Below the pieces are notes generated by a model, which saw only the letters and a list, made by a program, of their open reading frames with translations, was not told the DNA's origin and searched no databases. Below are positions 2,042-54,955 of a DNA stretch of 64,000 nt, in pieces. The position numbers and the translations under genes were made by a program. The stretch covers positions 3,410,001-3,474,000 of the forward strand of contig NC_017668.1 of NCBI RefSeq assembly GCF_000284515.1, in the 5' to 3' direction. This DNA comes from Halobacillus halophilus DSM 2266 (GTDB lineage Bacteria; Bacillota; Bacilli; Bacillales; Halobacillaceae). Position 1 is the first letter of the stretch. Each line of letters starts with the position of its first letter.

Positions 2042-5000
2042 TTAATCCCATTTTTTCAAGGCTGTCCACAGCCTTTTCAACTTCCGGTCCACGGGCTTGC
2101 GATCATCGGATTGCTGCTTCTGCCATTCATTGTAGCTCGCTATTCCGATGAGAATGAGGCCTGCGAGCAGCAGATACACCCACCACGGAAGATTGCCCCA
2201 GTAGGGTCTGGTCTGGTAAAGAACATTGAAGATCAGCACACCCATGCCGACGAAAAAGTAAGATTTAATCCGGAACTGCATGCCGGCGACCATCGATAGC
2301 AGCGATAATCCGCCAAGAATCCAAGCGTCCCAAATCGTATGACTCTGGATGCCATCAACTACTAAATAAGCAGCAATCAGCAGGAGAACCGCAAGCTGCA
2401 CATGATTCAGAATCACGGCGTACTCACGCCAGGTTTTTCTCCGCAGTATGAAAAGAACACCAAGAACGGGAAGCACTTGCAGTTCAGCTTCGATTAAGTC
2501 AGGAATCAGTGCATGATAATCCAGTAATACAATGATATACCCGGCATATAAACACCCGAATCCCAATGTAATGAACGATTTGCCAAGCAGCGGCTGCACC
2601 CATTTTTTAGCATTAAACAGGAACCAGATACTCAACAATAGTACGGGAATGACCCTTATCCAGACGTTCTCATCCATCATGGTCGTCAGGTTCAAATAGC
2701 CAATATAAAAGAGCGCTGTCCAGGTATAGGCATCGGCCTCTATTTTCGGGCCGATCAATAAACGATGGAAGTAGCGGCCTGCCACAAGCAGAATACCGAA
2801 ACTTATGACCATCACCGTAACGAACGCTGAACGCTCCCAATCAAGGCTGACCTCATTCAATAACGCCAGGCTAAGTAATAAGGGAATAAATCGAGCGAGC
2901 GACCACTTTCTGCGATGCATAAAGAAGAGGATCAGGATGACGTACCCAACGGCGAGAAGCCATTCATACGGTGCCCACGGTTCCAGTCTGTTGATAAACA
3001 GAGACAATCCGAAAATGGAAAAAGGAATGAGATACCATTCGGTCCTTTTCTTCCACACGGCTGGTACCCCCATCCAGATTCCTGCGATGGCTATACTGGT
3101 CACAAGCCAGGCATACGTTTCGGGAACCGCATCCCACCAGCCGAAGTAGCCAGGGACCGTCCACACCGCAAAAAACAGCGTCGTCAAAGTTGCGTAAAGC
3201 ATCAGCTTGATTTCCCATTCGCGTTTGGCTTTTAAGGTGCTGTAGACGTACAGACTAAGGGGGATCAGCAGTACCCAGGGATACATCGCTTCCCCGCCCA
3301 GTGAATTGAGCAGAAAAATAGCGATCAAGAGAGGCTGAACGGAATGAGCCAGCCAATAAAAATAGGGCTGTCTTTCTTCCCATTTTCCAAGTCTCACATC
3401 TCCAAGAAAGACGAGCAGAGCAGGTGAGAGTATCATATAAGTAAAAAACGAAGCAAACGAATCGAACGATAATGGATCAAGTAAAGAGATATAAAAAGCT
3501 AACATCGTAACCGACACGAATAGCCAGAGAAAGGCTCTTTTAGCATACAGCACAAACCATACCATCATGCCGATGCCGACGAACAGAATCATAGGACGGA
3601 TCAAAACAGGGTCCACCCAGGGATTGGCTGCCAGGATGATCATAGCCAGGATATAAGAACCTTGGCCCGTATAAAAACTGGCCGCAGACAGCTGTTTATC
3701 ACGAAATTTGCTCCATACTAAATGGACGATGGTAAGTAAGATTCCTGTGACGGCCAAATGAAATGGAAAAGCTAACCCTTCCTGATAAGCAGGAAACCAG
3801 CCCATGAGAGGTTCATATAAAATAGCGGATGAAATAAACAAAGCCACCGGATGCACCCATACCGCTGTTTCTCCGATATCCACTTGGCTGTCCTTCCTTT
3901 TCACAGGATAAGCAAGACCGCTGATCATCAGGAACATGAACGAGCTATAGGCCAGACGTTCATCATACACGCTGTACCCAATACAGCCCGCCATAACGAA
4001 TATCGATGCATAGATCGTGCTCGGAGCCACAGCCTGGAGCCAAGCCAGGTTCGTCCATAACCCGATGTAGAGAAGAGACACCGCTGCTCCGATAAACAGG
4101 AATAGAAATAGCGGGCCAATCTCCGTCATTTCCCACAGCTGCCAAAGAGTGATAAAGAAAAACACAGGCGTCATATATTGGAAAACCACGTAGCTGGTTA
4201 AATTCGAAAGCAATAGGTAATTGACTGTAATCAGGGCGTAAGCGATCAGCAAGAGCCACGAACCCTCTTCCCCTCTAAACACGATACTTTCGTAACTAAT
4301 ATAAACAAAAGCACAAAAGGAGACGATTCCGCTCGTATAACGAAACACTTTTTCCACGAATTGATGATTCTTAAAGGCGTAAGCAAAACCTAAGTAAACC
4401 AGCCCAACCACCGCATAAACGGTAAGATCGACAGACTGAAGGGGTGAATTCTCTACCAGTTGATAGATAGCGTACACGATCATCACCGAAAAAACGAATT
4501 GGTACTCTTTCGTTTGATAGATGAAAACCATCGCCATATAGATGCTCGCCGTCAGCAGCAGATTGAAGCTGTAAAAGACTTCACTCTCAAAGAAAAACAG
4601 CATGAGCACGGTTGAAAGGACTAAGTTCATCTGCGCATAGAGCGGCAACTCTTTTATAAATAACGCCCATCTGTTCGAATCCTTAAACCAGATATAACCG
4701 CCAAGCAGAAACGCATTGAAAAGCATTAAACACATATAGAACGCGTCCACCGATAGAGGAAGGGCGCCAAGGCTGAATCCTGCCGACAGCGATAAAAATA
4801 CATAAGAGATCCATACGTATAAACGCGACTTATGTACAATCGCATGCCTGATGTATAACGGCAATGGAAGCAGTGTACCGAGCAGACCTAAGAGGTATCG
4901 GCCTTCCCCGAACAGGGATAGATAGTCACCGAACAATCCAAAGAATCCAATCGCCACAATCGCAATCGGGATTAGCAGACTTCCTAATGTCAAAAAGGCA

Positions 5001-23117: not shown

Positions 23118-23160
23118 CTCTAGTTATTTCCATATCCTCTAGCAGATCCTGGTAATTACT

Positions 23161-23186
23161 GGAGGACCTGAGGTAGAAAGAATTGG
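23161..23186. repeat. Degenerate half-REP sequence
   Basis: TGGAGGACCTGAGGT-A-GAA resembles the right arm of the 39-bp palindrome (TGGATGACCTGAGGTGGAA) and is almost the same as 36575-36600. No left arm is found. Confidence 0.45.
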
Positions 23187-29904: not shown

Positions 29905-30521
29905 TCTATTAAACAAACGGGCCGGATTGTGGAAGACTCGATTTCGAGATATTGGGTTGTGCTGAAGGTCCTGCGGGGGACGATTCGCTTTCCATGGGCA
30001 AGTGGTAAGCTTCCTCAGGCTTCGCCTTCCGGGATCTTACCGATCATGTTCATCCCATAGGAGTCTTCATCGTCCCCCTCCGGACCTTGACAAATCAAAA
30101 GCTCGAAATCACTTCAAACATCACCTGCGTTATGAGGAATTAGACCATGTGGTTTTGTACCTGTTTTTAAGATGTAACGATGCGCAATAACCTGTCATAA
30201 CACCATTTAATACAGATTAAGGATGAGAACTTTCCTCTTCTGGAAGGGTCCGTTTGCAAAATTATAGTTGGGTTGGTGGGGAAATGATGAGACTCCTGTG
30301 GGAGAAGGAACTAGGTGAGATCCCGCAGGGAGTGAAACGAGCAAGGAAGCTCCTGGTAAAAAGGAGGATCGACTAAAGTCGCCACGTCCTGTGACAACGT
30401 CGATCGACCCTACGTCTTGTAGGGCCGCAGGAAAGCGAGTTGTTTCCGTAGCCACCCTCATCTATTGTTTGCAAAGGACCTCAACTCTCTCGAAACTGAG
30501 TATTCAAGTAATAGGAGCTTA
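29905..30521. repeat. Compound palindromic element, expanded copy E4
   Basis: Order of modules is B (about 29965-30088) then A (about 30244-30480), the reverse of E1, with the GGGCC-type outer end at left (AACGGGCCGGATTGTGGAAGA) and the GGAGCTT end at right. Module A carries an extra insert of about 60 bases at its tip (30360-30430), containing small nested hairpins such as CCCTACGTCTTGTAGGG. It fills the gap between thrB and the VanZ-like gene; there is no gene in 29855-30540. Confidence 0.78.
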
Positions 30522-33787: not shown

Positions 33788-33874
33788 TTTTCAACCTCCT
33801 GCTACGACAAAACTAGATTACAATTTAATTAGTTTACCAGAAAAATAATAGATTCCATAACCTTACGATTAACC

Positions 33875-33929
33875 AAAACCTGTCACCTCAGGTCATCCAG
33901 ATTATGGATGACCTGAGGTGACAGGTTTT
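33875..33929. repeat. REP palindrome upstream of the transposase (loop GATTA)
   Basis: Perfect arms 33875-33899 and 33905-33929, 25 bp each, loop GATTA. Core CACCTCAGGTCATCCA is shared with all other copies; the outer eight bases are private to this copy. Confidence 0.9.
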
Positions 33930-34008
33930 TACATTTGATGGAAGAAGGATTATTTCGGATGTACAGCGAATAAAAAGTATTGGAAATATATTTGAAAGGA
34001 AGATCAGT

Positions 34009-34566
34009 ATGCCAAACCCTAAACGAATCTGGTATCCTCGTGCTTGTTTTCACATTACAGCGCGCGGCAACAGAAAAACGGATATCTTTTATGAACCGAG
34101 TGATCGCTATCGTTACTTGCAGTTCTTAACAGAAGCTAAACAGAGTTACCCTTTTAAAATCCACGCTTACTGTCTCATGACCAATCACATCCACCTGCTG
34201 GTTGAAACCATTAACCATCCCCCTGGTACTTTCATGAAAGACGTCCACTCCAAATATGCCATGTATTTTAATAAGAAATATGACTATGTGGGTCATCTTT
34301 TTCAAGGTCCTTATAAAGCAGATCTTCAAGGCGATGTAAACGCCCTTCTTCAAGTAAGCCGGTACATTCATTTAAATCCATGCCGGGCTTTGATTACTTC
34401 TAAGCCGGAAACGTATAAATGGAGCAGCTATCCTCACTACCTATCTCTTCTGCCGTACCCTTCTTCTATTGTTACCACTTCCACCATCCTCTCCTACTTC
34501 AAAAGTCCTGAAGAATACGCCTTCTTTGTGAATCTGGCAAATAAAACCACCTCAGGTCATCCATAA
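34009..34566 (+). CDS. REP-associated tyrosine transposase (Y1, RAYT type)
   Basis: 185 residues. Family landmarks: N-terminal RACFHITARGNRK, the HUH metal motif in CLMTNHIHLLVE (H60, H62), GHLFQGPYKA near residue 95, and the catalytic tyrosine Y119 in SRYIHLNPCRA. This is the TnpA_REP/IS200-like enzyme that nicks and joins single-stranded DNA at hairpins. AAAGGAAG precedes the ATG. The last six codons and the TAA stop lie inside the right-hand REP palindrome, the TAA being formed by its loop, so gene end and repeat evolve together. All catalytic motifs are intact, so the enzyme may be active. Confidence 0.93.
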   Translation: MPNPKRIWYPRACFHITARGNRKTDIFYEPSDRYRYLQFLTEAKQSYPFKIHAYCLMTNHIHLLVETINHPPGTFMKDVHSKYAMYFNKKYDYVGHLFQGPYKADLQGDVNALLQVSRYIHLNPCRALITSKPETYKWSSYPHYLSLLPYPSSIVTTSTILSYFKSPEEYAFFVNLANKTTSGHP

Positions 34567-34585
34567 TCTGGATGACCTGAGGTGG
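34547..34585. repeat. REP palindrome overlapping the transposase 3' end (loop TAATC)
   Basis: Arms 34547-34563 and 34569-34585. Opposite in orientation to all other copies as judged from the loop. It also separates the transposase from the convergent gnd gene and may act as a terminator. Confidence 0.92.
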
Positions 34586-34595
34586 AAGAAATAGG

Positions 34596-36539: not shown

Positions 36540-36574
36540 ACCATCTGCTACACCCCCACCCTTTCCCAATATAT

Positions 36575-36600
36575 GGAGGACCTGAGGTGGAAGGATTTGG
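36575..36600. repeat. Half-REP remnant
   Basis: TGGAGGACCTGAGGTGGAAG differs from the REP right arm by one base near its start; no convincing left arm. It lies between two convergent genes, 110 bases from a complete copy. Confidence 0.5.
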
Positions 36601-36709: not shown

Positions 36710-36750
36710 TCCACCTCAGGTCATCCAGATTCTGGATGACCTGAGGTGGA
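36710..36750. repeat. REP palindrome (loop GATTC)
   Basis: Arms 36710-36727 and 36733-36750, perfect. Between the convergent RpiR gene and the symporter gene; may act as a bidirectional terminator for both. The rest of 36540-36773 holds only the half-REP. Confidence 0.92.
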
Positions 36751-39240: not shown

Positions 39241-39281
39241 TCCACCTCAGGTCATCCAGATTCTGGATGACCTGAGGTGGA
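39241..39281. repeat. REP palindrome (loop GATTC)
   Basis: Arms 39241-39258 and 39264-39281, perfect. It begins a few bases after the stop of the M15 peptidase gene and may act as its terminator on the minus strand. Confidence 0.92.
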
Positions 39282-50053: not shown

Positions 50054-50092
50054 CCACCTCAGGTCATCCAGATTCTGGATGACCTGAGGTGG
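50054..50092. repeat. REP palindrome (loop GATTC)
   Basis: Arms 50054-50070 and 50076-50092, perfect, with an A run before and TAATTTTTT after, so it should work as a terminator for both the dsbA-like gene and the convergent glcF. Confidence 0.92.
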
Positions 50093-54912: not shown

Positions 54913-54955
54913 TTCCACCTCAGGTCATCCAGATTCTGGATGACCTGAGGTGGAA
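54913..54955. repeat. REP palindrome (loop GATTC)
   Basis: Arms 54913-54931 and 54937-54955, perfect 19 bp. Lies between the protease gene and the convergent GH42 gene; it is the terminator candidate for the galactoside operon. Confidence 0.92.

Follow-up and report, generated by a model that had tools for sequence, protein, structure and literature searches.

A RAYT-like transposase gene and a co-varying family of dispersed palindromes in Halobacillus

Here we show that a Y1 HUH transposase gene and a family of dispersed palindromes are located together in Halobacillus, change together from one enzyme clade to the next, and are found in the same set of genomes but for three exceptions, one of them large. 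The unit of the repeat is a 16-bp arm accompanied by GG or CC dinucleotides at fixed distances, 10 or 11 nt outside and 7 or 8 nt inside. We consider it probable that enzyme and repeat make up a system of the RAYT/TIRYT type, in which a conserved Y1 HUH transposase is accompanied by a dispersed sequence that it recognises.

The locus was analysed within a window of 64,000 nucleotides (C1:3410001-3474000) in the 4.17-Mb genome of Halobacillus halophilus DSM 2266, labelled G000. As far as the text of one survey goes, REP repeats are tied mainly to Proteobacteria, with eight phyla counted, and the words Firmicutes and Gram-positive are absent from that text (PMC3733652). No description of a system such as the present one in Halobacillus or Firmicutes was found in the openly licensed literature (text, without figures and supplements).

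Results

A transposase gene enclosed by two palindromes

The transposase gene (34009..34566, plus strand) encodes a RAYT/TIRYT-like Y1 HUH protein of 185 amino acids with H60, H62, and Y119, an assignment based on profile matches, alignment, a structural model with its fold match, and dN/dS. In agreement with the original prediction, the gene is intact and lies between two palindromes, both of them perfect (33875-33929 and 34547-34585); the flanking inverted repeat I1 measures 51 nt (88%).

The upstream palindrome (33875..33929) has 25-bp perfect arms and the loop GATTA, and consists of a core with 16-bp arms (33884-33920) extended on each side by a 9-bp self-complementary outer arm. Folded as single-stranded DNA it reaches -30.7 kcal/mol (z = -11.6 against 200 shuffles). 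Its stem and outer arms are kept in G003, G006, and G017, and its loop is inverted in all three. An outer foot, CC on the plus strand and therefore GG at position 10 when read outward, lies at 33873..33874 and is supported by the sequence and by the fixed-distance statistics given below; the right-hand outer foot is missing in G000 and G003 (TTTAC) and present in G006.

The downstream palindrome (34547..34585) has 17-bp perfect arms around the loop TAATC, with its core at 34548-34584, and encodes the end of the transposase: the C-terminal residues TSGHP are specified by the arm, and the stop codon falls inside the loop. Transposase C-termini lie within the enzyme's own palindrome in both clades described below, reading TSGHP or TSSHP in clade A and RPGHP or RPSHP in clade B, where the palindrome is a different one. 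One outer foot of the downstream palindrome lies inside the coding sequence (34536..34537, GG on the plus strand, CC at position 11 outward) and is absent in G003; the other is a GG at 34594..34595, read from the sequence. The two loops had been described as reverse complements of each other, which is correct for G000 (GATTA and TAATC) but not for the nearest genomes G003 and G006, where both loops read TAATC.

A search of the window for the arm (≤3 mismatches) gave 14 occurrences against 0.37 expected, 12 of them in palindromes and two alone. The window holds six full palindromes, including those at 36712..36748, 39243..39279, 50055..50091, and 54916..54952, each with the loop GATTC. The solitary arms are half-elements on the minus strand, one at 36574..36589 (CACCTCAGGTCCTCCA), with outer and inner foot and without a partner arm, and one at 23160..23175 (TACCTCAGGTCCTCCA), likewise with outer and inner foot. 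Elsewhere in the window, at 30357-30423, an Rfam Bacillaceae-1 RNA (RF01690) scores 64 bits against a gathering score of 35.

The enzyme belongs to the RAYT/TnpA_REP family

The transposase matches Pfam Y1_Tnp with 54 bits and NCBIfam REP_Tyr_transpos with 63 bits, the latter under the model cut-off of 80. Among 38 aligned transposase sequences, the REP_Tyr_transpos model matches 38 of 38 and the IS200 model 10 of 38, and H60, H62, and Y119 are invariant, which bears out the earlier statement that all active-site residues are present. A single-sequence search of solved structures returned nothing at E ≤ 0.001; a profile built from the 38 sequences found E. coli TnpA_REP (4er8) first (E 6.6e-7). 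The AlphaFold2 model (mean pLDDT 91) has the TnpA_REP-REP complex 4er8 as its nearest fold (E 1.2e-8), followed by the IS200, IS608, and ISDra2 transposases, and no further Pfam domain was detected at E ≤ 1. By its YIHLNP and NHIH motifs and by a profile and fold nearest to 4er8, the protein belongs to the RAYT/TnpA_REP family.

Within that family, published motifs of TnpA_Y1 subclass 2.1 are NHVH/NH[YF]H, FQ or W[EQ], Y[IV]HLNP, and an SS tail, as far as the source text gives them (PMC6006769); the Halobacillus protein (NHIH, FQ, YIHLNP, SS) would fall into this subclass by motif only. Most clade A and B relatives read NHVH where this transposase reads NHIH. The closest named homologues are from Halobacillus alkaliphilus (99% identical) and H. 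halophilus AcN7-4 (97%).

One other Y1 gene is present in G000, located elsewhere and IS200-like (C1:3122937-3123290, L060); it has a much stronger Pfam Y1 match of 142 bits, and two palindromes lie about 6 kb from it. Two or three RAYT-like genes each (E ≤ 1e-15) occur in G002, G005, G009, G012, G018, and G022, the extra ones being 32-49% identical to the transposase studied here.

Mean dN/dS of the transposase is 0.055 in clade A (9 of 36 pairs usable) and 0.044 in clade B (25 of 28), with pairs of saturated dS or dS ≤ 0.05 left out (27 of 36 and 3 of 28, respectively). These values indicate strong purifying selection at the level of the coding sequence. From reading the open reading frames, we take the divergent upstream neighbour to be an AEC-type transporter gene and the convergent downstream neighbour to be 6-phosphogluconate-dehydrogenase-like. 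Mean dN/dS of the AEC gene is 0.026 in clade A (5 of 36 pairs) and 0.022 in clade B (18 of 28). It adjoins the enzyme gene in 17 of 17 clade A and B loci and in none of the 13 other loci examined. In 11 of the 17 (nine of clade A, two of clade B) it is divergent and 77-100% identical; in the remaining six, all of clade B, it is convergent, on the opposite side, and 68-69% identical, so that relocation of the enzyme gene or an AEC paralogue is possible there. Single copy, vertical inheritance, and purifying selection together place the gene with the RAYT family; vertical inheritance has been reported for RAYTs generally, in the text available to us (PMC8049555), and the AEC neighbourhood and dN/dS agree with it.

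The palindrome type follows the enzyme clade

The dispersed copies bear out the proposal that a Bacillaceae-type genome carries a RAYT-like gene and a palindrome family that goes with it. G000 holds 47 palindromes at ≤2 mismatches by genome search and at least 49 when the stretches retrieved for analysis are searched for loops of 5 or 6 with ≤4 mismatches in the arms, 38 of these being exact in all 32 arm bases. Half-site 13-mers (≤2 mismatches) number 88 and 101 per strand, compared with 16 and 14 for the reversed pattern. G003 has 49 palindromes by genome search, 47 of them within retrieved stretches.

In 44 genomes of the family we looked for the enzyme and for two palindromes, the present one (type A) and the one that adjoins the genes of the next enzyme clade (type B). 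These genomes, like the others counted here, are related and are not independent samples. Type A is present in 31-64 copies in all nine genomes with a clade-A enzyme, and the type-B pattern (≤2 mismatches, the related type C included) in 6-13 copies in all eight clade-B genomes and in none of the other 36. Altogether 12 of the 44 genomes contain type A, nine with the matching enzyme and three without it. Two of these exceptions are small (one copy in G014 and two in G022, neither with a clade-A enzyme). The third, G019, has 26 copies, and a protein search of it found no enzyme match at E ≤ 10; its assembly comprises about 1000 contigs with 6% contamination, and a DNA search for the enzyme was swamped by palindromes, with 40 of 57 candidates scored. 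Among 397 genomes from the order, type A occurs in only two, G000 and G010, which belong to the same genus and both carry the enzyme. These searches put to the test the refuting conditions set with the original prediction, a palindrome in unrelated genomes without a RAYT or the lack of a copy-number link: a copy-number link across relatives is supported, and G019 breaks the rule. Overall, the palindrome sequence tracks the transposase clade, apart from one large exception and two small ones.

The eight clade-B enzymes make up a single supported branch (100/99), nested in the best tree among the clade-A enzymes, which are the nine remaining members of the larger branch and form a grade around B; a single switch of palindrome type is therefore sufficient. 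The G010 enzyme is adjacent to clade B (support 86/98), and 11 of the G010 copies listed carry the variant CCTCAAG/CTTGAGG, a paired double change. A more distant enzyme (L119, 57%) has a different palindrome alongside, ACCCCAGGAGAACCA.

Some further hairpins were seen near other relatives. More distant RAYT-like genes in G016 (L129) and G018 (L131) have hairpins nearby whose arms read GACGGTTCTC and which seem to be of a further repeat type. Of 44 named relatives (three of them close Halobacillus), 16 have at least one hairpin with 12-bp arms within 350 bp and 28 have none, as a raw count. No match to the palindrome was found among 72,556 plasmid and 50,697 phage records, from which records of near-identical genomes are perhaps excluded; a plasmid or phage origin was set aside on this result.

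Arms, feet, and half-elements

Outward from the 37-bp core, 65 of 98 sides in G000 and 43 of 90 in G017 have their first GG or CC starting at position 10 or 11, and other starts are uncommon; by type, GG stands at 10 on 36 sides and CC at 11 on 27. In clade-B genomes, 26 type-B and 14 type-C palindromes have a border at the equivalent place (GG at 12 or CC at 13 from the 33-mer), on 35 of 52 and 16 of 28 sides, respectively. A and T prevail in the spacer between core and foot, and 84 of 98 sides have T at position 9. Against the feet, about a third of sides in G000 and about half in G017 have none, and between orthologues feet are kept only slightly better than neighbouring bases (44/56, 49/57, and 42/50 versus 62/88, 64/90, and 55/84). 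Left and right feet are not associated as a GG-CC guide and target pair would be, with 10 complementary and 12 non-complementary combinations at the 22 G000 sites that have both. A canonical 5' GT[AG]G foot was looked for at the hairpins of the listed copies; no GTAG recurs there, and the recurrent border is GG/CC.

Arms also occur singly. The G000 stretches contain 18 arms without a full partner (≤3 mismatches), compared with one for a reversed-arm control. When five genome sets are taken together, 29 half-elements are found (≤2 mismatches), some of which are mutual orthologues; 22 have an outer foot, 21 an inner one, with GG 7 or CC 8 positions beyond the arm, and 17 have both; in a few, found in close pairs or tandems, the foot consists of bases of the neighbouring arm. 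In the full palindrome, the 5-nt loop and the TGG of the second arm set a GG exactly at the place of the inner foot. At three G017 loci (L239, L240, and L241) a half-element stands in direct tandem with a full palindrome; the two meet at CC, and the period is 24 nt. Because loop and TGG coincide with the inner-foot place, and because tandems and half-elements exist, the full palindrome is best read, from its sequence, as two 16-bp arm units placed head to head. The GG/CC feet are putative cut sites of the enzyme. By eye, the consensus arms of types A, B, and C each contain a short odd palindrome (ACCTCAGGT, GACCTGGTC, and GACCAGGTC) that might be a dimeric double-strand binding site.

Placement behind genes and along the chromosome

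Gene calls are longest-ORF calls. The 49 G000 copies lie in 21 convergent, 19 co-directional, and 9 divergent gaps, where control gaps number 25, 96, and 49 of 170; the 45 G017 copies lie in 11 convergent, 27 co-directional, and 5 divergent gaps and twice within called ORFs, where control gaps number 13, 57, and 31 of 101. Apart from the overlap with the RAYT end, none of the 49 G000 copies is inside a called ORF. A gene 3' end is found within 50 bp of 34 of 49 copies in G000 (24.5 for random positions) and of 24 of 43 in G017 (17.9), and a gene start within 50 bp of 6 copies in G000 (11.9) and 4 in G017 (11.5). Just past the stem, at least five T in eight positions are present on 67 of 98 sides in G000, compared with 19 of 98 further out. 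A stable hairpin followed by a T-rich tract makes the copies candidate intrinsic terminators, and those behind genes with T-rich tails on both sides would resemble bidirectional terminators. A location at gene 3' ends is also described for REPs in the survey text seen (PMC3733652, section 15), and the palindromes are placed alike.

On a larger scale, each of six genomes has one large arc free of copies, 0.75-1.78 Mb long, with a chance of 7e-3 to 3e-9 if copies were uniformly distributed. For this and the clustering analysis, G023, G028, and G029 were represented by exact matches only (53/58, 41/52, and 54/64), the length of G029 was entered as 4.9 Mb (rounded), and G010 contributed 31 places. 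The empty arc of G000 (C1:1.69-2.85 Mb, 1.15 Mb) spans the expected terminus; the start of this contig is, by our reading of it, presumably near dnaN and gyrB. Within 50 kb of the enzyme gene 6-11 copies are found where about one is expected, a number equalled by 2-4% of random anchors per genome; the clustering is no more than suggestive of local hopping around the RAYT gene.

Fixed cores, inverting loops, and re-paired outer arms

Of 93 palindromes in the retrieved stretches of G003 and G006, 90 match a palindrome-bearing G000 site by at least one flank, all 36 G003 loci having been used in the matching. Rates were calculated without pairs in which either copy has more than four arm mismatches; the count of loop inversions left out none. 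Core divergence is 1.0% for G000-G003 (44 pairs), 1.3% for G000-G006 (43), and 1.1% for G003-G006 (41), whereas the aligned flanks differ by 10.5%, 11.4%, and 12.3% and the loops by 31%, 27%, and 26%, in the same order.

With perfect arms, the 5-nt loop alone gives the palindrome a direction. Exact loop inversions were seen in 11 of 44, 6 of 45, and 5 of 42 pairs against 2.7, 2.0, and 2.1 for re-paired sites, and 0, 63, and 258 of 5000 shuffles reached the observed number, which makes the third comparison weak. At the same time loops retain orthology: orthologous loop mismatches number 68, 57, and 54 versus 102.6, 102.6, and 90.1 after re-pairing, and none of 1000 shuffles reached the observed number in any comparison. 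The loop repertoire also differs by lineage, with GATTC/GAATC abundant in G017.

The outer arms pair within a copy at positions 1 and 2 in 46 and 37 of the 49 copies, versus 29.6 and 13.4 when arms are combined between copies. Where an outer pair has changed on both sides, it has stayed paired in 12 of 17, 14 of 20, and 12 of 19 cases; changes on one side only number 72, 67, and 64. A constant core with drifting, often paired outer arms would fit sequence-specific selection on the core, and both loop inversion and arm matching could be explained by template switching during replication.

One clean presence/absence difference was looked at closely, at site 3129488, with a palindrome in G000 and G003 and none in G006; it may be a gain or a loss. 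No movement was seen among these close species (G000, G003, and G006), and the earlier suggestion that the system may still be moving is unproven. Five G000 sites are without a partner among the retrieved stretches in G003 and four in G006, 3129488 included. One palindrome without a G000 partner (L285:1498) lies within an indel of about 1.4 kb, which ruled it out as a clean empty site. At the greater distance of G017, matching genes on either side enclose a G017 palindrome for 19 of the 51 G000 sites, two G017 palindromes serving two sites each; in the pairs printed, the flanks can no longer be aligned by eye, the palindrome upstream of the transposase being the one exception.

Discussion

In a wide sense, the Halobacillus palindromes are a REP-like repeat family, being dispersed, intergenic, and present in many copies with a cognate RAYT. 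They share with the REPtrons of E. coli, Pseudomonas, and Stenotrophomonas, as presented in the parts of the sources seen, the cognate dispersed hairpins, the location at gene 3' ends, and the nearest fold, 4er8 (PMC6006769, PMC8266576), but differ from them in having no GTAG or GT[AG]G foot, a perfect palindrome, a loop of free direction, and GG/CC on both sides. A closer likeness is to TIRYTs and TIRtrons, for which the survey text describes a RAYT-like Y1 gene flanked by non-GTAG inverted repeats, some self-complementary and some forming moderately abundant families, with figure legends marking repeats that overlap the gene end as 5'ov or 3'ov (PMC3733652). Taken as flanking inverted repeats unrelated to GTAG REPs (PMC3733652, section 16, as far as its text goes), TIRs include the Halobacillus palindromes. 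The motif GGGGWSAS reported there for some, not all, TIRs (PMC3733652) is not seen by eye in the Halobacillus core. The TIRtron text, its figures and supplements lying outside this comparison, mentions neither GG/CC feet at fixed distances from a 16-bp unit nor half-elements nor a change of repeat type across a whole clade (PMC3733652). The RAYT relative of Scopulibacillus darangshiensis (L153) carries GGGGTCAG; separately, this gene (about 3001-3510) is flanked by self-complementary GGGGTCTGACCCC..GGGGTCAGACCCC, which fits GGGGWSAS.

Subclass 2.1 includes 20 of 26 described TIRYTs, and REP-like sequences were not found for it, according to the portion of the source seen (PMC6006769, section 12). 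The Halobacillus system departs from the subclass, as that text characterises it, in two traits: the 185-aa transposase has no C-terminal HTH/DnaA_C-like extension (Pfam, E ≤ 1), and repeats are present (PMC6006769). It is a REP-like system of a type unexpected in this branch of the enzyme family.

The alternatives explain parts of these observations. The original prediction saw a complete REPtron here, with the REP-iREP layout of enterobacteria and pseudomonads, whose canonical REPtrons have a GTAG foot. Annotation-level similarity of the RAYT, dispersed intergenic palindromes, and their place at gene 3' ends (PMC3733652, section 15, in the text seen) agree with it, but we find this reading scarcely credible: the GTAG or GGAG foot is absent, the palindrome is perfect rather than directed, and, to the extent that the source text covers them, the NHIH/FQ/YIHLNP/SS motifs are those of subclass 2.1 and not of the GTAG-associated subclasses (PMC6006769). 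The REP-iREP orientation was rejected because loop direction changes between orthologous copies. It is also very improbable that the locus is an insertion sequence of the IS200/IS605 type, with the palindromes as its ends and the dispersed copies as MITEs derived from them. IS608 and ISDra2 share with it the Y1 HUH fold, to which the model also matches, and a hairpin adjoining the gene; here, hairpins flank the Y1 gene and the downstream one overlaps its end. But there is one such gene in G000, with the AEC neighbour at all 17 clade A and B loci (11 in the same arrangement), its dN/dS is low, profile and fold are nearer to TnpA_REP than to IS200, and the dispersed copies have in common no more than the 37-bp core and the spaced feet. 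An IS200-like mobile element is disfavoured by the single gene in a neighbourhood similar across species.

Two further explanations concern the uniformity of the repeats. The palindromes might be ordinary bidirectional intrinsic terminators, or sites for a host DNA-binding protein, kept uniform by selection, with the transposase merely situated between two of them. The location behind genes, the T-rich tails, and the strong constraint on the core are what this would lead one to see; the copy-free arcs (0.75-1.78 Mb, in G000 over the expected terminus) recall chromosome-organising sites, and G019 has palindromes with no enzyme detected. We nevertheless regard it as unlikely, since the palindrome type switches with the transposase clade, 395 of 397 order genomes give no match, and fixed GG/CC borders on three different cores, as well as half-elements with two borders, are not features of terminators. 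Ectopic gene conversion between copies, instead of selection at each site, could likewise account for a core that is near-identical across 49 copies and for a loop repertoire specific to lineages. Conversion of the whole core would, however, erase the orthology that the loops keep, and conversion as the sole cause of uniformity was rejected on this ground; we consider it a decidedly doubtful explanation.

For the RAYT/TIRYT-type system that we favour, the following course may be envisaged. The enzyme would recognise the arm or the hairpin as single-stranded DNA, and its nicking and joining would take place at the GG/CC feet, in the way that E. coli TnpA_REP uses CT. According to the source text seen, cleavage by the TnpA_REP enzymes examined is at CT or CA, and one of them cut at CC after its guide was changed to GTGG (PMC8266576). 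Since CC/GG also occurs within the arm, correctly spaced (tCCa beside the loop), units would join other units, giving palindromes and tandems. Most copies would now be static, and selection would retain them behind genes, where they would act as bidirectional transcription terminators or as mRNA 3' ends, their cores held constant and their outer arms remaining paired through compensatory change. We put forward only tentatively the full picture of a REP system of new build in Firmicutes, in which a mobile 16-nt arm, GG/CC cut-and-join sites, and the joining of unit to unit yield perfect 37-nt palindromes, kept by the host as bidirectional terminators with fixed cores, inverting loops, and re-paired outer arms, and in which specificity and palindrome switched jointly in one branch of the genus.

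What is new in relation to the systems compared is, first, a Gram-positive host that has a clear cognate family; the GG/CC borders, half-elements, and switch between clades are new as well, and so is the contrast of a fixed core with a fast-changing loop. The system combines subclass 2.1 motifs with a clear cognate repeat family and offers a natural switch from A to B within one genus, and its matched pairs of enzyme and hairpin make it possible to test directly, in a Gram-positive host, what the enzyme recognises, how it chooses its cut site, and how perfect palindromes arise. It may also be a case in which a transposase-linked repeat has been turned into a standard signal at the ends of genes.
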